Positions 4,705-40,503 of a DNA stretch of 46,020 bases are shown piece by piece. The DNA comes from Fibrobacter sp. UWH4. GTDB lineage: Bacteria; Fibrobacterota; Fibrobacteria; Fibrobacterales; Fibrobacteraceae. The stretch is taken from positions 1 through 46,020 of the forward strand of contig NZ_FRAY01000012.1 of NCBI RefSeq assembly GCF_900142475.1, given 5' to 3'. Every line of letters begins with the position of its first letter. The stretch's first letter is position 1. Made by a program: the position numbers and the translations under genes. A model generated the notes under the pieces. It had not been told where the DNA came from. It worked only from the letters and a program-made list of their open reading frames with translations, and did no database searches.

Positions 4705-4722
4705 GCCGGGCAGGAGCAGGAA

Positions 4723-4977: not shown

Positions 4978-4998
4978 TCGTTTTGGAGTAAGGCGAAT

Positions 4999-5666: not shown

Positions 5667-5675
5667 AGGTAACAC

Positions 5676-6215: not shown

Positions 6216-6224
6216 GGTAATACC

Positions 6225-6410: not shown

Positions 6411-6423
6411 GGAGAGTATACTC

Positions 6424-6819: not shown

Positions 6820-6821
6820 AG

Positions 6822-7361: not shown

Positions 7362-7370
7362 GGGTAAACT

Positions 7371-7742
7371 ATGACTGCAATTGCTAAGAAAAGAATCCAG
7401 TCCAGAATCGCACGCCACGAACGTGTGCGCAAGTCTGTTGTCGGAACTGCAGAATGCCCTCGTTTGGCTGTTCGCCGTTCCTTGTCCCACATGGTAGCCC
7501 AGATTATCGACGACGAAAACAACAAGTCTCTCGTCCAGCTCACCACCACCGCCAAGGAATTCCAGGCTAAGTTCGGTGAAATGACGAAGTCGGAACAGAG
7601 CAAGCAGCTCGGTCTCCAGATTGCTGAAGTCGCTAAGTCCAAGGGCATTGAATCCGTGGTCTTTGACCGCGGCGGTTACATCTATCACGGTCGCGTTCAG
7701 GCTCTCGCTGAGGGAGCTCGTGAAGGCGGACTCAAATTCTAG
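7371..7742 (+). CDS. rplR: 50S ribosomal protein L18
   Basis: This 123-residue protein is L18, a 5S rRNA-binding protein that works with L5. It has the basic N-terminus RIQSRIARHERVRKSVVGT. It also has the VFDRGGYIYHGRVQALAEG and AREGGLKF C-terminus typical of bacterial L18. It ends in TAG and is followed at once by rpsE. Confidence 0.97.
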   Translation: MTAIAKKRIQSRIARHERVRKSVVGTAECPRLAVRRSLSHMVAQIIDDENNKSLVQLTTTAKEFQAKFGEMTKSEQSKQLGLQIAEVAKSKGIESVVFDRGGYIYHGRVQALAEGAREGGLKF

Positions 7743-7753
7743 TGAGGTACACT

Positions 7754-8236
7754 TTGGAACGCGAAGCTCAAGTTTCTGAATTTGAAGACAAGGTTGTACA
7801 CATCAACCGTTGCGCGAAAACCGTCAAGGGCGGTCGCCGCATGTCCTTCTCCGCTCTCGTTGTCGTCGGCAACAAGAACGGCAAGGTCGGTGTCGGTCTC
7901 GGCAAGGCTAAGGAAGTTTCCGAAGCCATCCGTAAGGGTACCGAAGCCGCTCAGCGCAACATCGTTGAAGTGCAGCTCCTCGACGGCACCATCCCCCACG
8001 ACATCGAAGTCAAGAGCGGCGCAACCCGCATCCTCTTGATGCCGGCTGCCCCGGGTACTGGTGTTATCGCCGGTGCCGCTGCCCGTGCCGTTCTCGAACT
8101 GGCCGGTGTGCGCAACATCCTCACCAAGATTCACGGTTCTTCCAACCCGAGCACTGTCGTGAGCGCCTGCCTCGAAGGTCTCTTGGCTCAGAAGAACAAA
8201 CAGGACTGCGCCGCTCTCCGCGGTGCCAATGCCTAA
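7754..8236 (+). CDS. rpsE: 30S ribosomal protein S5, probable TTG start
   Basis: The product contains [20 protein letters not shown] and [17 protein letters not shown], the S5 signature of the mRNA entry and decoding region. No ATG lies at the expected N-terminus. A TTG at 7754 ([13 protein letters not shown]) has a GTGAGG ribosome binding site 6 bases upstream and gives 160 residues. A GTG at 7742 that overlaps the rplR stop would add four residues and is the alternative. Either way this gene uses a non-ATG start while nearly all its neighbours use ATG. Confidence 0.94.
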
Positions 8237-8249
8237 GGAGTAATACACG

Positions 8250-8429
8250 ATGAAGAAAGTTCGTATTACTTTGATTAAGGGTACTGTCCGTCGTCTCCCG
8301 ATGCACCGCGCTAACGTGGCTGCTCTCGGCCTCCGCAAGATCGGACAGTCTGTTGAACACGTTTTGACCCCCAGCATCCAGGGCATGATCAATGCCGTGG
8401 CTGACATGGTGAAGGTCGAGGAGATCTAA
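8250..8429 (+). CDS. rpmD: 50S ribosomal protein L30
   Basis: This short gene lies in the gap between rpsE and rplO. The ATG at 8250 follows AAGGAGTAATACACG and opens a 59-residue frame, MKKVRITLIKGTVRRLP onward, ending in VADMVKVEEI. The fold core VAALGLRKIGQSVEH is typical of L30, a small peripheral large-subunit protein. Its position between S5 and L15 is the standard one. Confidence 0.95.
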   Translation: MKKVRITLIKGTVRRLPMHRANVAALGLRKIGQSVEHVLTPSIQGMINAVADMVKVEEI

Positions 8430-8430
8430 G

Positions 8431-8871
8431 ATGGAACTCAATACTCTCAATCCTGGCAAGGCTGCCAAGGGCAAGAGCCGCAAGCGCATTGGTCGCGGTC
8501 CGGGTTCCGGTTGGGGCACCACCGCTGGCCGTGGTCAGAAGGGTGCCGGCGCTCGTAAGAGTGCACGGGCCGGTCGCGTCGCTTTCGAAGGCGGCCAGAT
8601 GCCGATCCACCGTCGCATCCCGAAGCGTGGCTTCAAGCACGCCGGTGTTGAATTCCAGATCGTTAACCTCAAGAAGCTCGCTTCTTGCAGCGTGACGGAC
8701 TTCGACGCCCAGGCTCTGTTTGACCAGGGTTTCATCAAGAACATCGAACTGCCGGTCAAGGTCCTCGCTTTTGGTACCATCGACAAGGCAATCAATGTAA
8801 AGGTTAACGCCATCAGCGAAAAGGCCAAGGCCATGATCGAAGCTGCTGGCGGCAAAGTCGAGATCGTCTAA
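8431..8871 (+). CDS. rplO: 50S ribosomal protein L15
   Basis: The 146-residue protein is L15, an assembly protein with an extended basic glycine-rich N-terminus. RKRIGRGPGSGWGTTAGRGQ (residues 14-33) and FEGGQMPIHRRIPKRGFKH are diagnostic. The start is 1 base after rpmD and the stop overlaps the secY ATG by one base, which couples ribosome and translocon gene expression. Confidence 0.98.
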   Translation: MELNTLNPGKAAKGKSRKRIGRGPGSGWGTTAGRGQKGAGARKSARAGRVAFEGGQMPIHRRIPKRGFKHAGVEFQIVNLKKLASCSVTDFDAQALFDQGFIKNIELPVKVLAFGTIDKAINVKVNAISEKAKAMIEAAGGKVEIV

Positions 8872-10232
8872 TGGAAGCTCTCAAGAAAGCTATCGATGCG
8901 TTCGCCAATGCGTTCAAGATCGAGGACCTGCGTAAAAAGCTCCTTTTTACGCTCGGTGTTCTGATCATCTATCGCCTTGGCGCTCACATCACCATCCCCG
9001 GAGTGAATTCTGCCGTTCTGGCGGAGTTCTTCCGTAACTCGAATAATTTGTTCGGCCTGTATGACTCCTTCACGGGCGGTGCGTTCGCCAAGGCGACCAT
9101 CTTTGCCCTGGGTATCATGCCGTACATCAGCGCGAGCATCATCATCCAGTTGATGGGCTCCGTGATTCCCGCTATCCAGATGCTTCAGAAGGAAGGTCAG
9201 GAGGGGCGCGCTAGGCTGAACCAATATACCCGTTACTTTACGGTAGCACTCGCTGCCTTGCAGGGATGGGGCATTTCTGTGTGGCTTTCGTCCCTTAAGG
9301 TGACAACCGCTACCGGTGCCGGAGTGTCTGTCTTGGCTGATGACTTCTCCTCTGGTGCCGGAAACATCGGTTTCCGCTTACTAGCTACCCTGACCTTCAC
9401 CGCTGGTACGATCTTCGTGATGTACCTGGGCGAGCAGATTACCTCGCACGGTGTGGGTAACGGTATTTCTCTTATCATCTTCGCCGGTATCGTCGGCGGC
9501 CTTCCGCGGGCTGCCCTTGCAGAATTCGAAATGTTTAAGGAAGATATCCAGCCGCTCGCCATCGAGATCTTCATTCTCGCTGTCGTCGTGCTGATTATCG
9601 GCTTTATCGTATTCGTCGAGCAAGCGAACCGTCGCATTCCACTCCAAAGTCCTCGCAGGACGGTCGGCTCCAAGGTCGTGGGCGGTCAGTCCAGCTATCT
9701 GCCTTTCAAGGTGAATACCGCTGGCGTGATTCCCGTGATTTTCGCAAGCTGCATCATGTTCATTCCGGCCATGATCGCTTCCTGGTTCCCGAACGTTTCC
9801 GCGATGCAGTCCTTTGCGGCTGCGTTCATCCCGGGTCACATTACCTACAGTGTGATCTTCGCTCTCCTGATTATATTCTTCACCTACTTCTACACGGCAA
9901 TCCAGTACAACCCTAACGACATTGCCGAAAACCTCAAGAGAAGTGGTGGATTTATACCGGGAATCCGTCCGGGTAACGAAACTGCAAGGTACATAGACCA
10001 CGTTCTCACGAGAATTTCTTTGCCTGGATCGCTTTTCCTCGCTTTAATCAGCGTTGGTCCGCTCCATCTCAAAGACGCACTCAATATGAGTTTCTATATT
10101 GGGGGCACCTCGGTACTTATCGTGGTCGGTGTGGCGCTGGATACGCTCCGTCAACTCGAAGCCCAGTTGCATACCAAGAATTATGAAGGTTTCCTCAAGC
10201 ATGGCCGCATTCGCGGCAGGATGGCGTCTTAG
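8871..10232 (+). CDS. secY: Protein translocase channel SecY
   Basis: This 453-residue inner-membrane protein is SecY, the pore of the Sec translocon. About ten hydrophobic segments are visible. Family signatures include GALFxK-type text around [20 protein letters not shown] (about residues 68-87, the plug and TM2 region) and the cytoplasmic-loop sequence [30 protein letters not shown] is the conserved loop before TM9. It overlaps rplO at its start, and its TAG overlaps the infA GTG by one base. adk and map, which follow secY in many bacteria, are absent. Confidence 0.98.
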
Positions 10233-10450
10233 TGGCTAAAGAAGAAGGAATACAAGTAGAAGGTGTTGTGTTGGAAGCTCTTCCCAACGCCTTCTTCCGT
10301 GTCCAGCTTGGAAATGGCCACGAGATTCTCGCTCATGTTTCAGGAAAAATGCGTCGGCATTTCATTCGAATTTTGCCGGACGACAAAGTGTTGGTAGAGA
10401 TTTCCCCCTACGACCTCAATCGTGGGCGAATCACATACCGTTACAAGTAA
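10232..10450 (+). CDS. infA: Translation initiation factor IF-1, GTG start
   Basis: The 72-residue product [19 protein letters not shown] onward is IF-1, the OB-fold factor that occupies the A site during initiation. The family end [16 protein letters not shown] is intact. The only sensible start is the GTG at 10232, which shares its G with the secY stop (TAGTG), so translation is probably coupled to secY. Confidence 0.98.
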
Positions 10451-10478
10451 TAGGTATTTTCAAAGAAAGGTCAAACCT

Positions 10479-10595
10479 ATGAAAATCAAAGCCTCCATCA
10501 AACCCAGATGTGAAAACTGCAAGATCATCCGCCGCAAGGGTGTATTGCGCATCATCTGTTCGAAGAACCCCCGTCACAAGCAGAAGCAGGGATAA
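10479..10595 (+). CDS. rpmJ: 50S ribosomal protein L36
   Basis: This 38-residue protein starts [19 protein letters not shown]. The residues C11, C14, C27 and H32 match the zinc site of the metal-binding form of L36. The gene sits in its standard place between infA and rpsM. An AAAGAAAGG stretch lies upstream of the ATG, and the TAA is followed 9 bases later by rpsM. Confidence 0.95.
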
Positions 10596-10604
10596 GGAGA
10601 TCGT

Positions 10605-10973
10605 ATGGCACGTATCGCTGGTGTCGATTTACCGAAAAACAAGACCGTCGAGTACGGTCTGACGGCAATCTATGGTGTCGGTCTGTTCACCGCTAACAAG
10701 GTCTGTGCTCAGCTGGGCATCGACAAGAACAAGAAGTGTGACGACCTGACTGAAGAAGAACAAGGTAAGATTCGCCATCTCCTCGAAGACGAATACTCCG
10801 TGGAAGGTCAGCTCCGCGCAGAAATTACCTTGAACATTAAGCGTCTGCAGGATATTGGCTGCTATCGTGGCATCCGCCACCGCAAGGGCCTTCCGGTCCG
10901 CGGTCAGCGCTCCCGTACCAATGCCCGCACTCGTAAGGGCCCCAAGAAGACTGTGGCTAACAAGAAGAAGTAA
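10605..10973 (+). CDS. rpsM: 30S ribosomal protein S13
   Basis: The 122-residue protein is S13, a head protein that contacts P-site tRNA and forms intersubunit bridges. It begins [20 protein letters not shown]. The C-terminal region has the conserved [20 protein letters not shown] and a basic tail. AAGGAGATC is a clear ribosome binding site. Confidence 0.98.
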
Positions 10974-10984
10974 GGAGATTCATC

Positions 10985-11425
10985 GTGGCTGAAGAAGAAA
11001 TTAAGGAAACTGCTGCCGCTGCCGAAGCTCCGGTCGCTGCTGCTACAGAAGAAAAGGTCAAGAAGGGCAAGAAGCGTATTGACATCCAGGGCATCGCCTG
11101 CGTGTTCGCTTCCTTCAACAATACAATCGTTTCTATCACCGATGCTCGCGGCAACGTGGTCGCTTGGGGCTCTCCGGGTAACTCCGGTTTCAAGGGCTCT
11201 CGCAAGAGCACTCCGTTCGCTGCCCAGCTCGCCGCTGAAGTCGCCGCCCACAAGGCTTTCGACCTCGGTATGCGCAAGGTAGATGTCCGCGTCAAGGGCG
11301 CAGGTGGCGGTCGTGAATCCGCTGTCCGTGCTATCAAGAATGCGGGCCTCGAAGTTCTCTCTATTCGAGACGTGACGGGCGTTCCGCACAATGGTTGCCG
11401 TCCTAAAAAGAAGAGAAGAGTCTAA
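10985..11425 (+). CDS. rpsK: 30S ribosomal protein S11 with acidic N-terminal extension, GTG start
   Basis: At 146 residues this is longer than the usual S11 (about 129). The extra residues are an Ala/Glu/Lys-rich N-terminus, [16 protein letters not shown] onward (about residues 1-28). The core is normal: [19 protein letters not shown] and the C-terminus [18 protein letters not shown]11 shapes the mRNA exit channel. The start is GTG with AAGGAG 9 bases upstream. rpsD, the usual next gene, is missing and rpoA follows directly. Confidence 0.97.
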
Positions 11426-11443
11426 TTAAAAGAGGTATCGCCA

Positions 11444-12418
11444 ATGATGTGGAAATCACTTCAGATGCCGCGCAGCTTCCAGAAAGTGGAAACCGGCGAA
11501 GACGGTCGCTACGCCAAGTTTGTCGTAGAGGCTTTGGAACGTGGCTGGGGTATTACCCTCGGTAACGCCCTCCGTCGCTCGCTCCTTTCCTCTCTGCAGG
11601 GTGCGGCTATTGTCTCCGTGAAAATTGAAGGCGTCGATAAGGAATTTTCGACGATTCCGGGTGTGAAGGAAGATGTCACCGACATCATCCTGAATCTCAA
11701 GAGCATCCGCGTGAAGCTCCTGTCCGACCACGATGAAACCCTCCGCCTGGACATGTCCGGCGAAGGCGAAGTCACGGCCAAGGACTTCATGGACAATCCG
11801 AATGTTGCCATCTTGACTCCGGACGTCCATATCGCTACTTTGAACGGTAACGCATCGCTCTCCCTGGAAGTGAAGATTTCCAGCGGTCGCGGCTACGTCA
11901 CTGCCGACGAATTGAAGGACAAGGACGCTCCGATCGGCGTGATCGCCATGGACGCCAACTTCAACCCGGTGCAGAAAGTCGCGATGCACATCAGCGATAC
12001 CCGCGTTGGCCAGAAGACGGACTACAACCGTCTGGAACTGGAAATCACGACTGACGGTTCCATCGATCCGGAAGACGCTCTTGCATACGCTGCAAAGCTC
12101 CTCATGGACCACCTGGAAATCTTCATCAACTTCGAAGGCGATCTCGAAAGCCCCGAAGAACTTGAAATGGATGAAGAACGTCAGCGTATCGCCCAGCTCC
12201 TGCGCACCCGCGTGGACGACCTGGAACTCTCCGTTCGCTCCAGCAACTGCCTCCGTATGGCTAACATCCATACGATTGGCGAACTTGTGCGCAACAAGGA
12301 AAACGATATGCTTAAATACAAGAACTTCGGTCGGAAGTCCTTGGTGGAACTTAACGAGGTGTTGACCTCCATGGGCCTTTCCTTTGGCATGGACGTCGAT
12401 GACTACTTGAAGGATTAA
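11444..12418 (+). CDS. rpoA: RNA polymerase alpha subunit
   Basis: The 324-residue protein is the RNA polymerase alpha subunit. The N-terminal dimerisation domain has LERGWGITLGNALRRSLLSS (about residues 30-49). The C-terminal domain, which binds UP elements and activators, has the DDLELSVRSSNCL and NFGRKSLVELNEVL helix-hairpin-helix text (about residues 255-310). It follows rpsK by 18 bases and precedes rplQ by 2, the standard end of the alpha operon apart from the missing rpsD. Confidence 0.98.
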   Translation: MMWKSLQMPRSFQKVETGEDGRYAKFVVEALERGWGITLGNALRRSLLSSLQGAAIVSVKIEGVDKEFSTIPGVKEDVTDIILNLKSIRVKLLSDHDETLRLDMSGEGEVTAKDFMDNPNVAILTPDVHIATLNGNASLSLEVKISSGRGYVTADELKDKDAPIGVIAMDANFNPVQKVAMHISDTRVGQKTDYNRLELEITTDGSIDPEDALAYAAKLLMDHLEIFINFEGDLESPEELEMDEERQRIAQLLRTRVDDLELSVRSSNCLRMANIHTIGELVRNKENDMLKYKNFGRKSLVELNEVLTSMGLSFGMDVDDYLKD

Positions 12419-12420
12419 AC

Positions 12421-12885
12421 ATGAGACACGGTGTAAAAAACAAGAAATTGGGTGTGAATGCCCAGCACAAGCGTGCCATCCTCCGCGCTCTTACCACTTC
12501 TATTCTTGAGAAGGGCATGGAAGCCGAGCAGAGCAACCGCTACGTGCGCACTACTCTCCACAAGGCTAAGCTCGTCCGCAGCTGCGTGGATCGCATGATC
12601 ACTTATGCAAAGAAGGGTGACCTCTCTGCACGTCGTGAAGCTTCCCGCTTCGTGATGAGCCCGAAGGCCGTGCAGGACCTGTTCGCAACGATCGGTCCTC
12701 GCTATGCTGGCCGTAACGGCGGCTATACCCGTATCATCAAGCTCGGCCCGAACCGCGCTGGTGACGCTTCCGAAATGGCTCTCGTCGGTCTCGTCGAAGA
12801 CGAAATCGTCGTGAAGGCCAAGAAGGCAGCCGAACCTGCCAAGTCCGAAGCCGTGAGCATGGTCGAAGGCGAAAGCAAGGCATAA
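12421..12885 (+). CDS. rplQ: 50S ribosomal protein L17
   Basis: This 154-residue protein is L17, at the tunnel exit region. The conserved start MRHGVKNKKLGVNAQHKRA and the middle GGYTRIIKLGPNRAGDASEM are present. The last 30 or so residues form an Ala/Lys/Glu-rich tail. It closes the ribosomal superoperon, which ends at the hairpin just downstream. Confidence 0.97.
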   Translation: MRHGVKNKKLGVNAQHKRAILRALTTSILEKGMEAEQSNRYVRTTLHKAKLVRSCVDRMITYAKKGDLSARREASRFVMSPKAVQDLFATIGPRYAGRNGGYTRIIKLGPNRAGDASEMALVGLVEDEIVVKAKKAAEPAKSEAVSMVEGESKA

Positions 12886-12912
12886 TTGATCTTTGCAAAA
12901 AGATTGAAAAAC

Positions 12913-12944
12913 AGGGGCCGATATGATTCGGTCCCCGTTTTTTA
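12913..12944 (+). terminator. Terminator after the ribosomal superoperon
   Basis: GGGGCCGA at 12914-12921 and TCGGTCCCC ending at 12936 form a hairpin with one bulged T, followed by GTTTTTTATT. It lies 28 bases after rplQ. The next gene has its ribosome binding site almost on the T-run, so some readthrough into the acyltransferase gene is likely. Confidence 0.75.
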
Positions 12945-30351: not shown

Positions 30352-30392
30352 GGGGGGCTTAAAGAGCCCCCGTTCATTTGGGGGCTGTTTGA
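30352..30392. terminator. Terminator between the protease gene and the convergent nuclease gene
   Basis: AGCCCCC at about 30365-30371 pairs with GGGGGCT at about 30380-30386. The same AGCCCCC can pair with the GGGGGCT of the preceding GGGGGGGCTT, so two alternative hairpins compete. CTGTTTGAG follows. Placement between convergent gene ends supports a terminator for either strand. Confidence 0.65.
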
Positions 30393-30396
30393 GTAA

Positions 30397-31317
30397 TTAT
30401 TTCCCGCGGATCTGCTCTTCAGTCAAGTTGAACCTGCGTACAAGCATATCCATCGCAACGCCATCTTCCAGGAGCCCGCGGGCGGTGCTCAGCTTCTCGG
30501 CTTCGGATTTCGCGCGCTCTTCATCTGCTTTCTTGCGTTCATCGGCAATCCGCTGACGGAAAACATCGCCGGCACTGACGAACCCGTATTTCTGTCCCAC
30601 GCTTACGAATGCCATATCAAGCTCCTTTTGCGCCTCTTCGCTGAGGTACTCTGCCAAATATACACTAATTTTATGTAGCAAGCAAGAGGCCTCGTAGTGC
30701 GGCAACTTGCGCAGGGCGTCTGCGAATTTCGGTAAGATTTCCTTGATTTTCTGCTCGTTGAATGCATATTTCATTGCGATAACGCCCATCCCCGTCGCGA
30801 TATCGTCGCACGCGAAACATGCGCTATCGGGAATGTCTGCCACATTCACGAATGCACACCGGAAAGGCAGAACCCTACCGCGGAAGAATTCGGGATACCC
30901 GTCTTCGAGCTTATCGAGGGGGTTCCAATTAGTGGGGCCATTGTAAATGATGATAGTCATTGTCGGGATTCCGCTGTACGCACGCGTCTTGTCGTAAATC
31001 CTCATAACGGAATGCACGTAATCGGCAATCTGTTCAAAGACATTCGAATCGCGTCCGGACTTGTGTTCCAACAAAACGCCAACAATCAGGGGCGCCCCCG
31101 TGGAGACGTTCACGCGGAAGGCGAGATCCGCCTCGCCAGTATCATCCACCTCCGAATACGAGTCGGGAATACGCACCAGCGTATCGAGGTTCACCGCCTT
31201 GAGAAATTCGGCGATTTCGCAGTTGAATTTTTCAGCAAGTTTGAGCAATGAATGAAGATGGGCTGCTATGGCAAATAGCCAGCGAAAGAAGGAATCATGG
31301 GGTTTACGAATCATCAT
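30397..31317 (-). CDS. Rpn family PD-(D/E)XK nuclease / transposase_31-like protein
   Basis: The ATG at 31317, behind CGGAGATT, gives 306 residues. It begins MMIRKPHDSFFRWLFA, the usual Rpn/transposase_31 opening. The PD-(D/E)XK catalytic pattern is visible as D64 (GEADLAF) and E84-x-K86 (LLEHKSGRD). The C-terminus is a charged coiled region (RKKADEERAKSEAEK) with a short helix-turn-helix-like end. Rpn proteins in E. coli promote RecA-independent recombination and some act in phage defence. Copies are often scattered in one genome. The frame is open for 24 more codons upstream, to 31389. Confidence 0.88.
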   Translation of the reverse strand: MMIRKPHDSFFRWLFAIAAHLHSLLKLAEKFNCEIAEFLKAVNLDTLVRIPDSYSEVDDTGEADLAFRVNVSTGAPLIVGVLLEHKSGRDSNVFEQIADYVHSVMRIYDKTRAYSGIPTMTIIIYNGPTNWNPLDKLEDGYPEFFRGRVLPFRCAFVNVADIPDSACFACDDIATGMGVIAMKYAFNEQKIKEILPKFADALRKLPHYEASCLLHKISVYLAEYLSEEAQKELDMAFVSVGQKYGFVSAGDVFRQRIADERKKADEERAKSEAEKLSTARGLLEDGVAMDMLVRRFNLTEEQIRGK

Positions 31318-31751
31318 AATCTCCGTTCGAAAGTTTTTTGGTTTTGGCTTGCAAACGGAAAATGCTGGGACGTAGAACACCTGCGGCACCAGACGGTTGC
31401 CGCTCGCAAACCAGTTAAATGACTGATTGTTTTACGTCAGGCGAATAATGCACGCCAGACGGTGCTCTACGTTGATAGCCACAGGGCCGGTTCCCTGCAG
31501 GGCAACTGTCGCAATTTGCGAAGTGGTCAACTGCGCAAAGAGTAACGACCTCAAGCAGATAGTGAAACTTCCTGCCCTGAATAGTACTGAGTCGAAAGTC
31601 GCAGTTTTAAGCTTGCTTGAAACGATGACTGAGACTATGATACGGACGCCCTCAGCGTCATTTTCTCGGAGTCAGCAGGATTGTCGGAATTTACAGGGAG
31701 TAATATACAATACTTGCGTGGGAAAAGCAAGAGGCGAGGGATGGAACGTTC
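31318..31751. other. Gene-free 434-base stretch upstream of the Rpn gene
   Basis: No confident gene is visible. On the minus strand the Rpn frame continues open to 31389. CACCGTCTGGCG and AACCGTCTGGTG occur about 70 bases apart, a short degenerate repeat. A small GACGC-CCTCA-GCGTC hairpin sits at 31645-31659, followed by ATTTTC on the plus strand. It could be a long leader, decayed coding sequence or a dispersed element. Confidence 0.35.
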
Positions 31752-32504
31752 TTACTTTTCTCGCACCAACCGGACGGAGAACTTGTAATCCGGGGCGCGG
31801 TAATTCTTTTCCCACCCGTGCTTGCTCAAAGACAAACTATTGACAGCGTGGTGGCCTTCGCTATCGCAATCCGTTGAACTGTCGGCCCAGAAACACGTCA
31901 CCTCGGAATCTCTCGATTCTGCAACATAGACGGATTCTCCAAGGATGTCGACATAGCCTGCGGCATAAATTCCGAAACCGAAATTGTCAATAGGGTACAC
32001 ACCGTCGGTGCCTTTCCAGCCGTCTTTATGCATAAGCGACCTGGTGGAATTGCACGTGATTTCATCGGCAAAATTAATCAGGGAATCCCAATCTTCGATC
32101 GTGGGCAGCCGCCACCCCTCGGGAATGTATTTCTTGGCGTCGTGGTAAGTGTACAGTAGACCGAAAGTGCCTTGATAAATGTTGTTGTCGTCGAGAACGA
32201 CGCTATTTCTGCAATGGAATCGCAAGTTCTCGGCAAACCATTCCCTGCCATCGATAGTGACCGTCTCGTAGAGCTCGCCATCGCGCGGGTCCTCAAATAA
32301 GCCTTGTTCAATGTGCAACGCAGACATTGCGGGTTTTCTCTGAATAATCTCGTCATCAAGAATATCGGTAATAATGTCGTCTCCGTACAAGTCAAAATAA
32401 GGCGACAGGAACTTGTTGATGTCGCTACGGATGTCGTCAAGAGATTTCTTTACTTGGTTCTTGCAAAATGGGCAATACTTTATCGCTTCGTTTTCGCTGT
32501 TCAT
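31752..32504 (-). CDS. Cytosolic FISUC-domain protein with N-terminal zinc-ribbon half
   Basis: The 250-residue product has no signal peptide. It begins MNSENEAIKYCPFCKNQVKK, a CPFC knuckle like half of a zinc ribbon. A helical linker follows, then the FISUC domain from about residue 75: GREWFAENLRFHCRN, YTYHDAKKYIPEGWRLPTIE and the end DYKFSVRLVREK. Most FISUC proteins in Fibrobacter are exported, so a cytosolic form is notable. The start has AAAGGATTC upstream, and an AAGTTCCA inverted repeat lies 68 bases before it. It is divergent from the AT-rich operon. Confidence 0.82.
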   Translation of the reverse strand: MNSENEAIKYCPFCKNQVKKSLDDIRSDINKFLSPYFDLYGDDIITDILDDEIIQRKPAMSALHIEQGLFEDPRDGELYETVTIDGREWFAENLRFHCRNSVVLDDNNIYQGTFGLLYTYHDAKKYIPEGWRLPTIEDWDSLINFADEITCNSTRSLMHKDGWKGTDGVYPIDNFGFGIYAAGYVDILGESVYVAESRDSEVTCFWADSSTDCDSEGHHAVNSLSLSKHGWEKNYRAPDYKFSVRLVREK

Positions 32505-32571
32505 AAGAATCCTTTGGTAGGGAGGATAAATATACCTCGGCTATGGCCGGATTCAAATACACAAAAAATCC

Positions 32572-32592
32572 AAGTTCCAGAAAGTGGAACTT
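32572..32592. repeat. Inverted repeat AAGTTCCA-N5-TGGAACTT
   Basis: AAGTTCCA (32572-32579) and TGGAACTT (32585-32592) are perfect inverted copies around GAAAG. The same AAGTTCCAG core recurs at 38191-38198 and 39970-39978, each time in the spacer before an accessory gene. It may be an operator or a transcript hairpin. Confidence 0.6.
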
Positions 32593-32627
32593 TTATCAAA
32601 AAATGAATTCATGCTTTAAAAATGTGT

Positions 32628-32642
32628 ATTCCAAGTTGGAAT
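32628..32642. repeat. Palindrome ATTCCAA-G-TTGGAAT
   Basis: A perfect seven-base inverted repeat around a central G. It shares the TTCCA/TGGAA half-site with the repeat 40 bases upstream, so both may bind one regulator. It lies before the promoter proposed for the AT-rich operon. Confidence 0.45.
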
Positions 32643-32694
32643 GAGTTTTTTATATATTTTGTTAATATAGGTCATATTGATAATTGTAGAGATT

Positions 32695-32722
32695 TTGTAT
32701 TTTTTTAGAAAGGTGCTAGAAT
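32695..32722 (+). promoter_or_regulatory. Possible promoter of the Zorya-like operon
   Basis: TTGTAT at 32695-32700 and TAGAAT at 32717-32722 are spaced by 16 bases. Transcription would start near 32729 and leave a leader of about 84 bases before the first gene. The region is AT-rich, so chance matches are common. Confidence 0.4.
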
Positions 32723-32812
32723 AAATGTTTTATTCAGAGACAAAAAATATGCTTTGTAAAGGCTCAAAAAAGAAATAGAGCTTGTTTCACAAATTTTAAC
32801 GCTAATCCACCG

Positions 32813-33943
32813 ATGGTATTTAGTTTCAAAAAAAAGAAAACGCAAGAATATTCCTGTCCTAAGTGTGGAGGGAAATGGGTCGGTTCTGCGGGTGGATATG
32901 ACCGAAATAATCCATCCAAAGATATGGAATCAACTTGTAATTATCTTGCAGAAATCGAAGGAAAGAAATGCCCTTTTTGTGCACAAGCAGAAACTAGAAA
33001 ACTTTCTTTACGGAAAGACAAGGATATGATGGACCGACCGAAAGAAAAAACTTTTGTCCTACAACATCCAAGATTCACTCTTGGAGATGTGTATTTAATG
33101 CCAAAGGCAAAGATACAGATAGATGAAGCTCTTTCTAAAATTAAGAACTACAAAAAAATCTATCTAGAATGGAATTTCAAAAGTGCTGATCCCGATGGAG
33201 CGGGGACTATTTTGAATTTTTATGGTAAGCCTGGTACTGGAAAAACATTGACTGCCGAAGCCTTGGCCGGAACGCTTGGAAAAGAAATGCTCTGTCTTGG
33301 CATGTCTGATGTCGAAAGCAAATTTATGGGAGAAACGGCACAGAATATCCAATTGGCTTTTGAATTTGCACAGAAAAAAGATGCTGTACTTTTTTTTGAT
33401 GAAGCTGACACACTTCTTGGAGCAAGACTTTCTAATGTTACGCAAGGCATTGATAACGAAGTCAATTCTTTACGCTCCACGTTACTTATAGAATTAGAGC
33501 GATTTGAAGGAATTGTCATATTTGCAACAAATTTTGAGAGAAACTACGATAAAGCTTTTGTAAGCCGAATAACACAGCATGTGTGTTTTGAACTTCCTGA
33601 TGCAGACGGTCGTCGCCATATTTGGGACAAGTTCCTTGTTTCGGGCATTCCCTTAGGGGACGAACGCGAATCGTTACTGTCTAAGTTGGCCGACAATTCA
33701 GGTGGTTTTTCTGGACGAGATATTCGAACCTGTATGCGCCTCGCGCTACCCAAAGCAATCCATCGATGTGGAGATGACGAAATCAAAGTCTCTTGGACGG
33801 ATTTTGATTCCGCTATTCAAGATGTCAGAACGCAGAACTATTCCGTAGGAATGGAAATAGGCAGCTCTCGACAGGAAGAGAATCGAGCTGCTTTGAAAAT
33901 GCTCGGTGCAAAGATTTCAAATGAAAATTCAACCAATAAATAA
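32813..33943 (+). CDS. AAA+ ATPase with N-terminal zinc ribbons (first gene of Zorya-like operon)
   Basis: This 376-residue protein has two cysteine pairs at the N-terminus, C15/C18 (CPKCGG) and C53/C56 (CPFC), which could form one zinc ribbon. The classical AAA domain follows: Walker A GKPGTGKT at 138-145, Walker B VLFFDEAD at 192-199, sensor Asn in FATN (residue 240), a probable arginine finger in SRITQHVCFE (R252), and the lid GGFSGRDIRTCMRLAL. The closest type is the FtsH/SpoVK/Cdc48-like group, with no protease domain. No Shine-Dalgarno sequence is obvious before the ATG. The next gene starts 12 bases on. A remodelling or signal-relay role in the operon is inferred. Confidence 0.88.
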   Translation: MVFSFKKKKTQEYSCPKCGGKWVGSAGGYDRNNPSKDMESTCNYLAEIEGKKCPFCAQAETRKLSLRKDKDMMDRPKEKTFVLQHPRFTLGDVYLMPKAKIQIDEALSKIKNYKKIYLEWNFKSADPDGAGTILNFYGKPGTGKTLTAEALAGTLGKEMLCLGMSDVESKFMGETAQNIQLAFEFAQKKDAVLFFDEADTLLGARLSNVTQGIDNEVNSLRSTLLIELERFEGIVIFATNFERNYDKAFVSRITQHVCFELPDADGRRHIWDKFLVSGIPLGDERESLLSKLADNSGGFSGRDIRTCMRLALPKAIHRCGDDEIKVSWTDFDSAIQDVRTQNYSVGMEIGSSRQEENRAALKMLGAKISNENSTNK

Positions 33944-33955
33944 TCGGAGTACATA

Positions 33956-35191
33956 ATGGGATTCTTCGGAAACATATGGAATGGCGTAAAAACTTTTGCT
34001 GTCAAGGCGGTTAAAGTTGTTGGAACCGTCTTAACTAAAGTCGCTGAAGTAGGGGAAAAGGTTATTAAAACAGTAAAGGAGGTTTGGCCTAGAATAAAGC
34101 CCTGGTTGGAAGAATTTGGCAGTAAGTTAGCTGAAATACCTGGAATAGGTCCTTATTTGGCTTCTGCGGCACAGGGCCTTTTAGCATTAGATAAATCTCC
34201 TCTTTTAAGAGCTGTCGGATCGTTGGCAGAAAAATGGTTGCCTATAGTTGGTCGCATCGGTGAAAAACTGAAGGATTGGGCTGAGATCAAGGAAGCCGAG
34301 GCTGCTAGAAAAAAAGTAGAGGAGGCAGAACGAGAAGAAATGACGAATCGACAGAGAGAAGAACTTCTCGTTTGCAAGATTCTTCTACACCACAAGATAT
34401 TAGTGTCTAAGGTTGCTGAAAAGATAAAGGAAAATGATGTTAGCTATATGGATAGTTATTTGCAACTTCGTGCGGCAAGTAGGATACTAGAACAAATGCA
34501 GAAAAAATGGAACGCTCATGAATTGAAAGCCTCGGATTTTACAAGCGAAGATGCGTTTGTGTTAAAATTTACAGAGAATTTGATTGTTGGACGGGAAGTT
34601 TCTGAAACTGAAGCGAATAAATTTGGCGATATAGTTGAATCTATGTTTGGAAAGCCAATTCTTGCGATTGTGTTTGATGAAATGGTAAAGCAATGGGCTG
34701 CAGACTTGGAGTTGGATAGAAAGAAAGAAGAAGAAATATCTGATACGATATGCGATATAGAAATAGACAAGGAAACTTTAGAGGAATATCGTAAATTTGG
34801 TAGGATGGATGAAAAGAAGGAAGCGCGTTATAAGGAATTGGTTGAGAAGCTAGAAGCTCTTGCAAACGAACGGGAATTGTTGAAAAAATCCATTAATCAT
34901 AGGCAATGTTATATTGAAGCTGCTGAAGGAATGCTTTTGGTTTACGAAGGTGATGATGCCCTACGTTCTGCACTTGAAGGGCGTGTAGACTTGAATAGGC
35001 TTGTTGAAGCTATAAAGAACCAGATTGAAAATGTTGCTAATGCGATTCTGCAGTGTATGGAAGGTGGAAAAAATTGGGAGGATCTCTCTACCGAAGAAAG
35101 GATGTTGATTCAAGATTTCTCAAATATTTTCAAAATAGCTGCTGCAAAACGAGCTGAAGAAATTGTAAATGTCGTTGTCGGGGTTGCATAA
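33956..35191 (+). CDS. Unknown helical protein with amphipathic glycine/valine N-terminus
   Basis: I do not recognise the family of this 411-residue protein. The first 44 residues (MGFFGNIWNGVKTFAVKAVK onward) form a run of Val/Ala/Lys amphipathic helix with glycines spaced as in membrane-active peptides. Another Gly/Ala-rich stretch follows at about 64-78 (IPGIGPYLASAAQGL). The rest is charged and helical, with likely coiled coil around 105-130 and 265-315. There is no Sec signal. CGGAG precedes the ATG, and the stop overlaps the natural ATG of the zorA-like gene by one base. It could insert into or bind the membrane; that is inference. Confidence 0.8.
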   Translation: MGFFGNIWNGVKTFAVKAVKVVGTVLTKVAEVGEKVIKTVKEVWPRIKPWLEEFGSKLAEIPGIGPYLASAAQGLLALDKSPLLRAVGSLAEKWLPIVGRIGEKLKDWAEIKEAEAARKKVEEAEREEMTNRQREELLVCKILLHHKILVSKVAEKIKENDVSYMDSYLQLRAASRILEQMQKKWNAHELKASDFTSEDAFVLKFTENLIVGREVSETEANKFGDIVESMFGKPILAIVFDEMVKQWAADLELDRKKEEEISDTICDIEIDKETLEEYRKFGRMDEKKEARYKELVEKLEALANERELLKKSINHRQCYIEAAEGMLLVYEGDDALRSALEGRVDLNRLVEAIKNQIENVANAILQCMEGGKNWEDLSTEERMLIQDFSNIFKIAAAKRAEEIVNVVVGVA

Positions 35192-35253
35192 TGAACGAGT
35201 GTATTGAATTTCTCATCCCTCAAAATGGTATTGAAAAGATTTTTTGCGTGTAA
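35191..35253 (+). other. Natural start of the zorA-like gene, out of frame by one base
   Basis: An ATG at 35191 overlaps the previous stop (TAATG) and reads MNECIEFLIPQNGIEKIF, then CV and a TAA at 35251-35253. A run of six Ts (35240-35245) lies just before the stop. Shifting by -1 within the run, or adding one T, joins this peptide to the zorA-like frame as EKIF-LRVIVVLSF. This gives the short leader plus first membrane helix expected of a MotA/ExbB-type protein. It may be a real frameshift mutation, a phase-variable tract, slippage, or a sequence error. Confidence 0.6.
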
Positions 35254-36581
35254 TTGTAGTATTGTCTTTCGGAACTATGCTAATCATTCATTTCAAGGCA
35301 AGAAAGAAATGCTTGAAATTTATAGAATCATGGGAATTTAATTGGATTGGCAAGACGCAAGATACCACAATGGATGATTTGAATGTGGAACATGGCTCTG
35401 TTTTTGAGTTGTCAGAAGCTATCGCTACACCAATAGAAAAATTTGCAAATGCATTACCTAGTATGCTTTTGATTATTGGCTTACTAGGTACATTTTTAGG
35501 TATTGGGCTCTCTTTGAATGAGGCGGCGGGCATTCTCAACAGTCCGGCTTTGTCATTGCAGCCAAATGCGGATATGATAGGGCAAATGAAGCCGATATTG
35601 GCTGGTATGACGGAAATGCTTGACAAGATGGGTGCATTATTTAAGTCCTCCATATATGGAATAATCTTCTTTTTCCTATTCTCTGCATGGCACAGCAAAT
35701 TTGGCACAGATGGGAAAAGGTTAAAATTTTGCATAGAAAAATGTAATGCGTTGCTTGCAAAGAAAAAAATGGATGAAACCGAACCCATAATTGGTGCATT
35801 GAATAATGTGTCCAAAAGTTTGGGAAATGACTTGAAAGAAGTGCTGATAAATGTGTTGAATGAAGGGATGCGTCATATTAACGATTCTTTGTTGACGATT
35901 AATAAAAGTCTGGGAGAATCTATGAAAGAAACTATATCTAAAGGCTTTGAATCGGCTAAAAGGAGTTTAAAGGCTGTTGCGGATGATACTGCAGAAACCG
36001 CTGATGCATTAAAGGAATTGAACCAGACAATGATTAGCTCATTTAACTCTGTTGCAGATTCTGCCAAGGAAATGAGCGAGGCATCTTCATCATTGAAAAA
36101 ATCCGTTGAAAATTTCACACCGGCAGTTCAAACAACTTTAGACAATATTCAGACTAAATTTGTAAATAGCATAAATGCTAGTGGCCAAATAATGGAACGT
36201 GCTGGTGTTGACATCCGAAACGCAGTTGAGAAAATGTCAAAGAAAACAGAAGATGGACAAAACTCTTTAAACTCAACATTAAGTACTTTCAGGACAGAAT
36301 TGGGCGATATTATGATGGACATTTCGAGAATGACAAAAGATATAGGTCGTCAAGCAAAAACATCAAAGGATGAAATGGCCAAGATAAGAGAAGAAATTTG
36401 TGATCGTTTGGTTAGCATTGCCTCTTCCAATATTATGCTGAAAGACGTCATTGATCAAATACCTTTGAATAAAATAAATGAATATATTGATGTTTCCTTG
36501 AAAAATGCAATGCAATCAACTGATTCAAGAAATAAATCAACGCAATCTATAGCTCTAGGACACGAAAAGGCTGGTAAATAA
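35244..36581 (+). CDS. zorA: ZorA-like MotA/TolQ/ExbB proton-channel protein
   Basis: The frame from TTG 35244 codes for 445 residues. Three membrane helices are visible at about residues 3-17, 71-91 (LPSMLLIIGLLGTFLGIGLS, the MotA_ExbB signature) and 134-150. A cytoplasmic tail of about 295 residues, rich in coiled coil (SFNSVADSAKEMSEASSSLK), follows. The long tail distinguishes ZorA from TolQ/ExbB and from flagellar MotA. In Zorya, ZorA5-ZorB2 is an inner-membrane proton-driven motor that senses phage entry. The first codons are separated from the probable true start at 35191 by a T6 frame break. It is followed after 8 bases by the OmpA-type partner. Confidence 0.83.
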   Translation: MRVIVVLSFGTMLIIHFKARKKCLKFIESWEFNWIGKTQDTTMDDLNVEHGSVFELSEAIATPIEKFANALPSMLLIIGLLGTFLGIGLSLNEAAGILNSPALSLQPNADMIGQMKPILAGMTEMLDKMGALFKSSIYGIIFFFLFSAWHSKFGTDGKRLKFCIEKCNALLAKKKMDETEPIIGALNNVSKSLGNDLKEVLINVLNEGMRHINDSLLTINKSLGESMKETISKGFESAKRSLKAVADDTAETADALKELNQTMISSFNSVADSAKEMSEASSSLKKSVENFTPAVQTTLDNIQTKFVNSINASGQIMERAGVDIRNAVEKMSKKTEDGQNSLNSTLSTFRTELGDIMMDISRMTKDIGRQAKTSKDEMAKIREEICDRLVSIASSNIMLKDVIDQIPLNKINEYIDVSLKNAMQSTDSRNKSTQSIALGHEKAGK

Positions 36582-36589
36582 AAAGTTTT

Positions 36590-37225
36590 ATGCGTGAAAA
36601 ACCAAATCCATTCGTTTCTATCTCCGACTTGATGGCTGGAGTTTCTGCAGTAATCATGTTGATGCTGGTTGTTATGGTTGTTCGGACGATGGTAATGTCT
36701 GCACAGGCAGAATTAAACCAAAAAAAAGGTATCTTCTATGCGATAAAAGAAATTAGTGATAGTTTGGATAAAGGTACACAAAATGTTGAAGTGACTGATA
36801 GAGGCCTTACTTTAAAAGATGCTGCGTTTGAGCGCGGAAGTGCATGTTTGAGTGAAAAAATGGATTCAATACTCACGCAAAAAATTGCACCAATCTTATC
36901 AAAGAAGATGAAAGAATACCCGAATATTCGAGTGTATATAGAAGGACATACGGACATTTTGCCTGTAAAAAATATATCTACGGACATTAAAGCAAAATGC
37001 GCCCTTTTTGATGACAATTATAGCCTTTCTGCTGGTCGAGCCAGAGAAGCGCGCAAGGCCATTTTGAATGCTGTAGACAATGATAAAGAGATTGCCCAGA
37101 GAATTGCTGTAGTCGGTTATGCTTCCGATAAGTTAAAGATAAAAAAAAATCCTGAAGCTGCGGAAAACCGCCGAGTAGAAATTCGTTTAGTTGTGCAGGA
37201 GCCGGAAAAAGATGATGCTGAATAA
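36590..37225 (+). CDS. zorB: ZorB-like MotB/OmpA-domain stator partner
   Basis: The 211-residue protein starts MREKPNPFVSISDLMAGVSA. The NPFxSISDLM text and the Asp at position 13, just before the single membrane helix (about 17-37), match the proton-carrying N-terminus of ZorB. The periplasmic part ends in an OmpA-like peptidoglycan-binding domain: VYIEGHTDILPVKN, LSAGRAREARKAIL and NRRVEIRLVV. With the ZorA-like protein it should form a cell-wall-anchored stator complex. The last 14 bases overlap the patatin gene. Confidence 0.87.
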   Translation: MREKPNPFVSISDLMAGVSAVIMLMLVVMVVRTMVMSAQAELNQKKGIFYAIKEISDSLDKGTQNVEVTDRGLTLKDAAFERGSACLSEKMDSILTQKIAPILSKKMKEYPNIRVYIEGHTDILPVKNISTDIKAKCALFDDNYSLSAGRAREARKAILNAVDNDKEIAQRIAVVGYASDKLKIKKNPEAAENRRVEIRLVVQEPEKDDAE

Positions 37226-38144
37226 TTTCGGATTTGTTTTTTCAGGTGGTGGTGCAAAGGGCGCTTGGCAATTAGGTGTATGGAAGGCATTTGAGGAAAA
37301 AGGGTATAGAGCGAAAGTTGTATCAGGCACTTCTGTTGGTGCACTAAACGCTTGTCTATATGCTCAAGGAGATATAAAAAAAGCGACATGTGCTTGGAAT
37401 GAAATAGACTCCTGGAGACTTTTGCACCCCGATCTTTTTAACATTATTATGAAGGGCCTGCCAACAGCTTTTTGGACATGTTACAATTTTTCTGCAACTA
37501 CAATTATGGAATTGTTAGGAATATCTTCAAAAGAAGATGGATTTTGTTTGCAGGATGGGTTACAAGAATTGATAGAACACCATCTGAACTTAAATAGGCG
37601 AAATCTTTGGCTTCCTATTTTTGTTTGTGCACATTCCATTGAAAAATCTTGCCCTGAATATTTCGCGATTAATTCCAAAGATGATTGGTCGCCAAAAGAA
37701 ATAACAGATATTTTATTGGCATCCGCGGCTATTCCCGTAATATATTCTTCTGTAAATATTCGGGGGAAAGAATATAATGATGGTGGTGGCGGAGTTCTAA
37801 ATTTTTTGTTTGACTATGAAAGCGATGAATATGACAATGCCCCTAAAGCTCCTCTGCAAAGGTTGCCGCTTGATCTAATCATTACGCTGGAATTAGAATT
37901 TAAAAACAATAATGATTGCATTCAAAAGACAAAAAAAGGTTTCCATACTGCTAAAATTGTTCCATCTAAACATTTGGGCGATTTTATAGATGGAACGATA
38001 AAATTTGAACAATCGTTTGTGAATGAGTTAATTGATCTTGGGTATAAAGATGGTTTAAAATGGTTGAACCATAACGAGGTTCAATTGGACTTAGAGAGTT
38101 TTTTAAGCAATTCTACGATATTGCCCAAAATTATATTCGACTGA
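37212..38144 (+). CDS. Patatin-like phospholipase (candidate effector)
   Basis: The ATG at 37212 lies behind AGGAG and gives 310 residues. The oxyanion loop SGGGAKGAWQLG (residues 11-22), the nucleophile motif GTSVG (39-43, S41) and the catalytic D190 in NDGGGG make a complete patatin Ser-Asp dyad. Such enzymes hydrolyse membrane lipids. Related patatins serve as suicide effectors in CBASS systems. There is no signal peptide, so it would act on the inner leaflet. The start overlaps zorB by 14 bases, which implies coupled translation and membership of the operon. It is the last gene before a hairpin. Confidence 0.9.
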   Translation: MMLNNFGFVFSGGGAKGAWQLGVWKAFEEKGYRAKVVSGTSVGALNACLYAQGDIKKATCAWNEIDSWRLLHPDLFNIIMKGLPTAFWTCYNFSATTIMELLGISSKEDGFCLQDGLQELIEHHLNLNRRNLWLPIFVCAHSIEKSCPEYFAINSKDDWSPKEITDILLASAAIPVIYSSVNIRGKEYNDGGGGVLNFLFDYESDEYDNAPKAPLQRLPLDLIITLELEFKNNNDCIQKTKKGFHTAKIVPSKHLGDFIDGTIKFEQSFVNELIDLGYKDGLKWLNHNEVQLDLESFLSNSTILPKIIFD

Positions 38145-38166
38145 TGTTTTAAGAATCCGTTCTAAA

Positions 38167-38198
38167 CTGGAACTTTTACATATCCTCAAAAGTTCCAG
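38167..38198. repeat. Eleven-base inverted repeat after the Zorya-like operon
   Basis: CTGGAACTTTT (38167-38177) and AAAAGTTCCAG (38188-38198) are perfect inverted copies with a ten-base loop. No T-run follows, so it is at best a weak terminator for the operon. It shares the AAGTTCCA core with 32572-32592 and lies about 100 bases upstream of the next FISUC gene. Confidence 0.6.
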
Positions 38199-38292
38199 AA
38201 AAATGGCTTAATTTAAAAATCGTTCCTGAAGCATCCCTTTTTACCTAGATTTGCCTTATAGCAAAAGGTAAATCACTTAAAAAGGAAAGCTT

Positions 38293-38925
38293 ATGTCCAT
38301 TATGGTTATGGCCAAGAAAACCGCCCAGCCCCAGGCCGAGGGGGAAAAGACTGCAAAGAGAACCGCCGCCGAAATGGGTACATTCGTTGACACGCGCGAC
38401 GGTACCGAATACAAGACCTGCAAAATCGGCAACCAGGTCTGGTTGGCCGAGAATCTGAAATTCGAGCTGGATTCAGACGACTGCGTCGCCTACGATGAGG
38501 ATTACCAGTATTTTGACAAATACGGTTATCTATATAGCGAAAAAGGCTTGAAGGAAGCGGTTCCCGAGGGTTGGCACTTGCCGAGCAAAAAGGAATGGGA
38601 GACGATGGTCCGCTTTGCAAAGAAGGATTCCCGTTGCAAGGACGTTTTGAGCGTTATTGCCTCGGAGGAATGGATCGAGTCAAGCTCTGACAAGTACGGC
38701 TTTTCTATGGTCGCAGGTGGAATGCGTTGTGAAAACGGAGATTTTGATTTAATTGATTTTTCGGCTTATTTTTGGTGTGTCGAAAAAACGGTTGACCCGA
38801 TAAGCCATGCGATTGGTCGCGAAAAATTCTATACGTGTGTGCGTTTCGAAGACGGCTGTGACGAAATCGATGACGAGGATTATCCGGCTTATGCGTCTGT
38901 CCGTCTGATTAAGGATGCGGAATAA
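38293..38925 (+). CDS. Cytosolic FISUC-domain protein
   Basis: The 210-residue product has no signal peptide; its N-terminus is Lys/Ala-rich (VMAKKTAQPQAEGEKTAK). The FISUC domain spans about residues 28-208: YKTCKIGNQVWLAENLKFEL, YSEKGLKEAVPEGWHLPSKK and the end YPAYASVRLIKDAE. AAAGGAAAGCTT is a good ribosome binding site. It is a paralog of the minus-strand protein at 31752-32504, and the two face away from the operon between them. Function unknown; a binding scaffold with a C-type-lectin-like fold is possible. Confidence 0.82.
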   Translation: MSIMVMAKKTAQPQAEGEKTAKRTAAEMGTFVDTRDGTEYKTCKIGNQVWLAENLKFELDSDDCVAYDEDYQYFDKYGYLYSEKGLKEAVPEGWHLPSKKEWETMVRFAKKDSRCKDVLSVIASEEWIESSSDKYGFSMVAGGMRCENGDFDLIDFSAYFWCVEKTVDPISHAIGREKFYTCVRFEDGCDEIDDEDYPAYASVRLIKDAE

Positions 38926-38933
38926 CGAAATCC

Positions 38934-38966
38934 ATTTAACATTTTGTAGTATACAAAATGTTAAAT
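38934..38966. terminator. Bidirectional terminator, perfect 15-base inverted repeat
   Basis: ATTTAACATTTTGTA (38934-38948) and TACAAAATGTTAAAT (38952-38966) pair perfectly around GTA. It lies between convergent genes and contains the stop codon of the minus-strand gene. The stem is AT-rich, so it may be less stable than a classical terminator. Confidence 0.6.
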
Positions 38967-39914
38967 GCCCTTATACACCCCCGCAGCCTTCTCGAACTCT
39001 TCTTTGAACCAGAGGCGCAGTTCACGCGGGGCGAGGACATCGGCGTCGCTTAGGAATTGCGGAAAATACACCTTTGCGAGTTTCTCGGAGCATTCGAAGG
39101 TGTAGGTGCCGGCGCTGTTTACCTCGGCGGTTGCGGCAGCTTGCGCTGATCCGCTTTCGCCAACTTTGGCGATCACTTTCGGGCGGTTGGTGGTGAGCTT
39201 GTTGTAGCGTTTGGCGCCTTCTTCGGTGAGTTTTACTTTGACACTTTGTCCGTAACACAAAAACGGGTCGAAGTGTTCGCGGAACATTTCCGCCTGGTGC
39301 GAGAGTTCAAAGTTTTCGCAGTGGAACGCCTTGCTTGCGGTATCGGGAGCGACTCCCCGGATGTGGCAGAGCCGCAGTGAATGGAATCGCGCACCGGCAG
39401 CGGTGCAGTCTACTTTGTCGTCGCACACCACCACGTATGCCCGCACCTGCGACGGCGAGAACGCCAAGAAGCAGGGCGAAACGCACTTTCGTTCTCCGCG
39501 GTAGGTGAGTGAAACATTGGTGCGGGACTCCGCGGCGGCGGTCAACTTGTCCAGTTCGTTGCGAAAAATGAAGCATTCGCGCTTGCCGCGGGGCATGTTC
39601 ACGTAGCATTCGAAATAGTAGCGGCAGAGGGTCGCGATTTTGGTGCCCGCGTTCTTGTTAAATGAATTCGCGAAGTTCGCAAAGCTTTCGCCTGCCTGGT
39701 TCAGCGAGAACTGCAGCGGCGGCACGTTTTTGTACAAAGTATCGTCGGCGCCGATTTTGGTCGGGTCGGGCGGCGCAAATTCCGCATAGCGGGCGAGTAT
39801 CCTGTTGCACAGGTCGCTCAGGCTCTTGAGTCCGTAATCTTCGGCGTCGAGTTCCATTTGCGAACGCAGCAGGTGCGATACGGCGACTTTTATTTTCTGC
39901 GATACATTAATCAT
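38961..39914 (-). CDS. WYL-domain-like transcriptional regulator candidate
   Basis: From the ATG at 39914 (MINVSQKIKVAVSHLLRSQM) the protein has 317 residues; an ATG at 39929 adds five. The centre, VSPCFLAFSPSQVRAYVVVC followed by FHSLRLCHIRGV (about residues 145-190), resembles a WYL domain, a ligand-sensing module of defence-associated regulators. The C-terminal part (SDADVLAPRELRLWFKEEFE) resembles the WCX-type extension. No clear helix-turn-helix is visible at the N-terminus, so the call is tentative. It sits beside the accessory island and could regulate it. Confidence 0.6.
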   Translation of the reverse strand: MINVSQKIKVAVSHLLRSQMELDAEDYGLKSLSDLCNRILARYAEFAPPDPTKIGADDTLYKNVPPLQFSLNQAGESFANFANSFNKNAGTKIATLCRYYFECYVNMPRGKRECFIFRNELDKLTAAAESRTNVSLTYRGERKCVSPCFLAFSPSQVRAYVVVCDDKVDCTAAGARFHSLRLCHIRGVAPDTASKAFHCENFELSHQAEMFREHFDPFLCYGQSVKVKLTEEGAKRYNKLTTNRPKVIAKVGESGSAQAAATAEVNSAGTYTFECSEKLAKVYFPQFLSDADVLAPRELRLWFKEEFEKAAGVYKGI

Positions 39915-39968
39915 GTCATAAAGATACATTTCAAAACGCCAAAGAGGAACCCCAGCGCCCTAAAAACG

Positions 39969-40050
39969 AAAGTTCCAGAAAATGGGCCGCTTTATAAAAA
40001 AAATTGCGAATTTCGGTCGTTTTCGCCAAAGTCCATTCTCGTAAAAGTTC
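39969..40050. promoter_or_regulatory. AAGTTCC motifs in the divergent spacer
   Basis: GAAAGTTCCAGAAAATGG (39969-39986) and AAAAGTTCC about 75 bases later lie between the WYL-like gene and the small orphan gene. Both share the core of the inverted repeats at 32572 and 38167. The spacing to either gene start is compatible with a promoter-region site. Confidence 0.4.
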
Positions 40051-40133
40051 CTGCCTGTAGAACAAAAAAATAATGTCTGTTTGAGCAAGCCCCGCCCGAG
40101 GCTAGATTTATTCAAAAAACAAAGGAGGCCGTT

Positions 40134-40454
40134 ATGGCTAAGAAAGAAGAAATCGAATTTGAAACCGAAGAATCGTCAAGCATCCTCGACGACATCTATG
40201 ACATCGCCCATGACATTTTCCCTGATGCGACCGAAAGATTTCACAAGAAGGTGGGCGACATGCTGGAGAGTGCCGTCAACTACATCGAAAACATCACGCC
40301 CTCGTGGGAGGCGGGCTGCGACCGCATCTTCAACAAGGTAATGAACTTTTTGGATGGTGCCGAGGAAAAGAGCCTGAAGGCAATCGACAAGGTGCAGCAC
40401 AGTCCCATCGGGGCCGCGATCGACCAGATCTACGAACGCAATCATCGCGACTAA
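40134..40454 (+). CDS. Small unknown acidic helical protein
   Basis: This 106-residue protein starts MAKKEEIEFETEESSSILDD behind a strong AAAGGAGG site, so it is very likely expressed. It is mostly helical and has no signal peptide or membrane segment. I do not recognise a family. Repeating short helices such as IYDIAHDIFPDATERFHKKV and CDRIFNKVMNFLDGAEEKS are visible. Confidence 0.68.
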   Translation: MAKKEEIEFETEESSSILDDIYDIAHDIFPDATERFHKKVGDMLESAVNYIENITPSWEAGCDRIFNKVMNFLDGAEEKSLKAIDKVQHSPIGAAIDQIYERNHRD

Positions 40455-40471
40455 GCGCAGCGTTTCATACT

Positions 40472-40503
40472 GCTGGTTTCCCTGAACTTGTTTCAGGACC
40501 AGC
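40472..40503. repeat. Interrupted inverted repeat between convergent genes
   Basis: GCTGG (40472-40476) with CCAGC (40499-40503) and CCTGAA (40481-40486) with TTCAGG (40492-40497) form one hairpin with a small internal loop. No T-run follows. It could be a weak bidirectional terminator or a dispersed palindromic repeat. Confidence 0.45.

Follow-up and report, generated by a model that had tools for sequence, protein, structure and literature searches.

A frame break in a T6 run at the start of zorA within a Zorya-like gene module of Fibrobacter sp. UWH4

The 46,020-nucleotide stretch of Fibrobacter sp. UWH4 DNA analyzed here (hereafter the window; contig NZ_FRAY01000012.1, positions 1 to 46,020) contains a variable cassette (32643-38163) whose G+C content of 38% contrasts with the 55% of the genes on either side. 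In G005, G030 and G079 the htpX-like and rarA-like genes that flank it lie side by side, with the spot between them empty, while in G020 the same spot is filled by another cassette that includes an Hsp70-like protein and a HerA-like ATPase. This setting is the pattern of a defence island. At the htpX-like/rarA-like hot spot (30354-40500), three species of the genus thus carry no cassette, and others carry different low-G+C cassettes. Elsewhere in the window, positions 1-12943 are 97% identical to G003 and G005, as compared to about 90% for neighbouring conserved genes, reflecting either recent exchange or strong conservation.

All genes of the cassette discussed below are encoded on the forward strand. 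The first gene of the module (32813-33943) encodes an AAA+ ATPase with N-terminal Cys pairs and an AAA domain that resembles those of IetA/IteA and CDC48 (Pfam AAA, 6e-24; PADLOC IetA, 6e-31). It is followed by the gene for protein X (33956-35191), an all-helical, family-less protein with an amphipathic N-terminus that has no family match in Pfam or NCBIfam and whose AlphaFold model matches no PDB entry below E 0.2. The stop codon of X overlaps the start of zorA, the body of which (35244-36581) encodes a MotA/TolQ/ExbB-type protein with a long helical tail. Adjoining zorA is an intact zorB-like gene (36590-37225) for a MotB/OmpA peptidoglycan-binding protein, with a Pfam OmpA match above the cut-off (1e-6), and the best PADLOC matches of the pair are ZorA1 (1.3e-10) and ZorB1 (8.7e-17). 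The end of zorB is overlapped by a gene for a patatin-like phospholipase (37212-38144; Pfam Patatin, 4e-29).

Searches with ZorA identified G088 (44% identity) and G098 (37%), which belong to another genus of the same bacterial family, and a plasmid of Paraburkholderia sp. PGU19 (25%), while a search with an alignment of X identified two IMG/VR contigs, L016 and L017, with the same gene order as the window. These are the five relatives referred to below. The order AAA-X-ZorA-ZorB is also found in PGU19 and L017; L016 has X-ZorA-ZorB on an available stretch that begins at X, and G088 has AAA-X-ZorA, with zorB apparently cut near the contig end. In G088 this apparent cut (L006 1-560) falls near the start of the contig, where a transposase-like reading frame begins. 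zorB follows zorA in G098, PGU19, L016 and L017, and in none of these four relatives with a complete zorB does a patatin gene lie beside it. Downstream of zorA-zorB in G098 lie genes for a 374-aa protein and a HerA-like ATPase. HerA-like ATPases that carry a long Ser/Thr/Gly-rich stretch occur together with a small glycine-rich membrane-type protein (L042 3420-12241, L007 4314-11044), and since these pairs are found both with zorA-zorB (G098) and without it (G020), they suggest a second modular system.

Orthologues of the AAA ATPase in G088, PGU19 and L017 are 46-63% identical to the window protein, and those of protein X are 43% (G088), 28% (PGU19), 26% (L016) and 24% (L017) identical; the zorA body is 41-44% identical to that of G088. 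Two in-frame insertions in the window ZorA are absent from all five relatives, one of six residues that follows the first membrane helix (~35305-35335) and one of seven residues that precedes the GALFKSS motif (~35600-35632). Neither zorA nor X was found in the other genus members examined, no X homologue was present among 398 Pseudomonadota genomes (a thin sample), and searches of viral contigs gave no match to the window X protein used singly or to ZorA alignments. An exact-pattern search of IMG/VR that permitted variable tract length likewise gave no match. The first contig match, L002 (Enterobacteriaceae), was a chance peptide similarity in an unrelated gene.

The junction between X and zorA contains a frame break. 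The X stop (TAA 35189-35191) shares its last base with ATG 35191-35193, which opens a leader, MNECIEFLIPQNGIEKIFCV, that ends after 20 codons at TAA 35251-35253. In the zorA-like frame, the last upstream stop is TGA 35232-35234, after which 445 codons are open up to 36581; the first of the usual start codons in this frame is TTG 35244. A -1 step inside the T6 run at 35240-35245, whose next base is G, fuses the two frames, so that the reading frame that begins at ATG 35191 is lost 18 codons on. Both the overlapping 20-codon reading frame and the fusion by a -1 shift had been described in an earlier note made from the sequence alone, and both were reproduced with the same coordinates. The note had also placed the break exactly where a short leader meets the first membrane helix, and this too proved right.

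In all five relatives, leader and body share one frame across the position of the junction. ZorA begins with MEYLYYLIPSDSIQLVF-LIVIAG in G088, MLETLKFIIPVDLLQGCF-FLIIFG in G098, MSLDEILLFLSPDLHSIQAVF-AAIMVA in PGU19, MNFQEILTFLLPSADPLQLLF-AGLIGI in L016 and MTFHEFFAFILPEFDVIQMLF-GGTMLF in L017, and each continues in a single frame into the body. Against these five N-termini the window leader has a summed BLOSUM62 score of 136, as compared to 69 +/- 9 for shuffled leaders, none of which (0/2000) reached 136; the two other frames, with scores of 46 and 72, do not rise above the shuffle level. Against G088 alone the leader scores 35, no lower than is usual between the relatives themselves (19-56). 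The zorA start overlaps the X stop in 4/5 relatives, by a single base, the arrangement of the window, in G088 and PGU19 and by four bases in L016 and L017. The leader is, on these sequence comparisons, the real N-terminus of this ZorA family, and the leader-frame match together with the start overlaps in relatives indicates that ATG 35191 is the ancestral zorA start, coupled to X, which bears out the earlier note's reading of it as the natural start. Because all five relatives are intact, the frame break is private to the window copy. We consider it probable that this private net -1 break in the T6 run is, most simply, the genuine loss of one base, with ZorA abolished or reduced as a result.

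A private break in a homopolymer within an otherwise intact operon is also what a sequencing or assembly error would produce, in which case the actual gene would be single-frame and ZorA normal. To weigh this reading, ~0.8 Mb of this genome in fetched stretches was compared with G003 orthologues, which matched 148 kb of coding sequence. The comparison revealed no frame break elsewhere in these 148 kb and, given that 66/94 planted one-base deletions were detected by the same procedure, the rate of frame breaks should be below about one per 35 kb. The absence of other frame breaks makes an artefact less likely, and we regard it as evidence against one, short of proof. Moreover, longer runs within the intact genes of the same module, namely A9 in zorB, T8 in the AAA gene and an A8, are all in frame, and six bases is a short run length for homopolymer errors on most sequencing platforms. 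An artefact is accordingly rather unlikely, if still worth bearing in mind.

Two further readings assign a function to the T6 run itself. Homopolymer phase variation is known for phage-resistance and restriction genes, for example in Campylobacter, and the window resembles such cases in that a single-base frame change lies in a homopolymer at the 5' end of a membrane protein gene that is also a putative, potentially toxic, defence gene, where changes in T-tract length could toggle ZorA. It differs in that the tract is short, non-conserved and without known length variants. The window contains 17 T6 and 19 A6 runs, among which the T6 at the junction is unexceptional, and the 5.3 kb module alone has 22 A/T runs of six or more, up to A9, of which the junction run is one. 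Near the junction, G088, PGU19 and L016 lack any run of five or more, and a homologous tract is absent in 4/5 relatives; at the junction of G098 there is a T6 run, and it is in frame. The relatives have diverged too far for a T tract to be shared with the window. With a tract that is neither conserved nor longer than the local background, phase variation is very improbable.

Alternatively, programmed -1 ribosomal frameshifting or transcript slippage at the T6 run could yield full-length ZorA, as a Phe-tRNA paired with TTT 35242-35244 could slip back by one base and the shifted product would be the exact family sequence. Against this, the junction codons (AAG ATT TTT TGC) contain no in-phase X XXY YYZ slippery heptamer and permit only single-tRNA re-pairing, on TTT, and the downstream RNA (35246-35330) folds no better than shuffled sequences (z = +0.84). 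Nor is a frame arrangement conserved that would call for a -1 shift, as 5/5 relatives are in one frame. We regard a programmed shift as extremely improbable. Intact relatives, an ordinary T6 run and the lack of heptamer and structure thus disfavour both of these readings, and of the four options raised in the earlier note it is a mutation that lowers ZorA that is now favoured, while phase variation and slippage are not.

If the break is a real deletion, ribosomes that start at ATG 35191 would terminate after 20 codons, as follows from the sequence itself, and the ZorA body would be made only through restart near the premature stop, at TTG 35244 or later starts, or through low-frequency slippage. 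A start at TTG 35244 would forgo the conserved leader and the beginning of the first membrane helix. The AlphaFold model of G088 ZorA is poor past its initial helices (mean pLDDT 51.5), and of it only the first helix was used. This first long helix comprises residues 12-36 with a local pLDDT of about 70, and the junction corresponds to residue 18, so that a protein started at the junction is predicted to lack the initial six residues of this helix. The best 19-residue hydrophobic stretch (Kyte-Doolittle) scores 1.65 in the TTG-start form as compared to 2.33-3.08 in the relatives, and the Shine-Dalgarno match in front of TTG 35244 is weak. ZorA is therefore expected to be both scarce and impaired, which would shut down or weaken ZorA-ZorB, the part of the system that resembles a motor.

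The same region could also be read as a functional arrangement, in which ribosomes reinitiate at TTG 35244 through coupling to the premature stop and yield a shortened, working ZorA at a lower dose that may suit a potentially toxic system. TTG 35244 lies seven bases upstream of the premature stop, a distance that suits restart, and is preceded by a weak Shine-Dalgarno match (-2.8 kcal/mol) equal to that of zorB. The rest of zorA and all other module genes, zorB and the companion genes included, carry no lesion, from which we infer that the break is probably recent, or else that it is tolerated or the protein is still adequately made. The intact body and module and the features of the TTG start are suggestive points that count against a disabling deletion. 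Conversely, the leader that such a restart would dispense with is conserved across phyla, the first membrane helix would lose its start and part of its hydrophobicity, and the arrangement is used by 0/5 relatives. A working, restarted copy is in our estimation distinctly unlikely, and loss or reduction of ZorA through a deletion remains the preferred reading.

The zorA break itself is then most likely ordinary decay of a putative defence gene, although software that calls the start at TTG 35244 would conceal the true ZorA N-terminus. The main interest of the locus is the uncatalogued module, in which ZorA-ZorB is accompanied by an AAA ATPase together with a new helical protein, and which recurs at four further loci, belonging to a relative of Fibrobacter type, to Paraburkholderia and to prophage-like contigs. 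Its occurrences (window 32813-37225; L006, L011, L016 and L017) extend from Fibrobacter-type genomes to a proteobacterial plasmid and prophage-like contigs. Among the open-access papers searched, we found none that names the gene set AAA-X-ZorA-ZorB. The locus is a probable anti-phage system, and the module would broaden the range of partners coupled to ZorA-ZorB motors. A more ambitious proposal is that AAA-X-ZorA-ZorB constitutes an unnamed, cross-phyla Zorya-like type with swappable partners (patatin here, dynamin-like GTPases in G088) and, in addition, that in this species the frame break, through coupled TTG restart or reversible T-tract changes, sets the dose of ZorA and so holds a costly membrane motor in check; we hold this combination to be speculative and quite improbable.

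Compared with named defence systems, the module shares individual elements with several. Its first gene is closest, in its AAA domain, to IetA/IteA of IetAS, but the AAA score is 97 against a cut-off of 510 and the module is without a subtilisin-like IetS. A link to LeoABC and other dynamin-like systems is seen in G088, where three dynamin-like GTPases lie just upstream of the module and two of these match LeoA/LeoBC, whereas none adjoins the module in the window. The G088 GTPases are found at L006 4852-10876, and the one that is not LeoA/LeoBC-like has, by eye, a C-terminal SUMF1/FGE-like region.

The closest likeness in gene anatomy is to Zorya, whose types are distinguished by their companions to ZorA and ZorB, with ZorC and ZorD in type I, ZorE in type II, and ZorF and ZorG in type III (PMC8565338, PMC11890865). 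The NCBIfam ZorA scores of the relatives G088 and L017 are 30.5 and 33.1, each against a cut-off of 100, and L017 ZorA matches PDB chain 8vvn_C at 0.0014. None of the AAA ATPase, protein X or patatin matched ZorC, ZorD, ZorE, ZorF or ZorG in the PADLOC search. As in Zorya, a ZorA-like protein of MotA type with a long helical tail is paired with a ZorB-like MotB/OmpA protein in a variable island, but an AAA ATPase and protein X take the place of ZorC/D, ZorE or ZorF/G. Judged by its sequence, the locus looks like a Zorya ZorA-ZorB motor in its anatomy, yet one that lies outside every named Zorya type.
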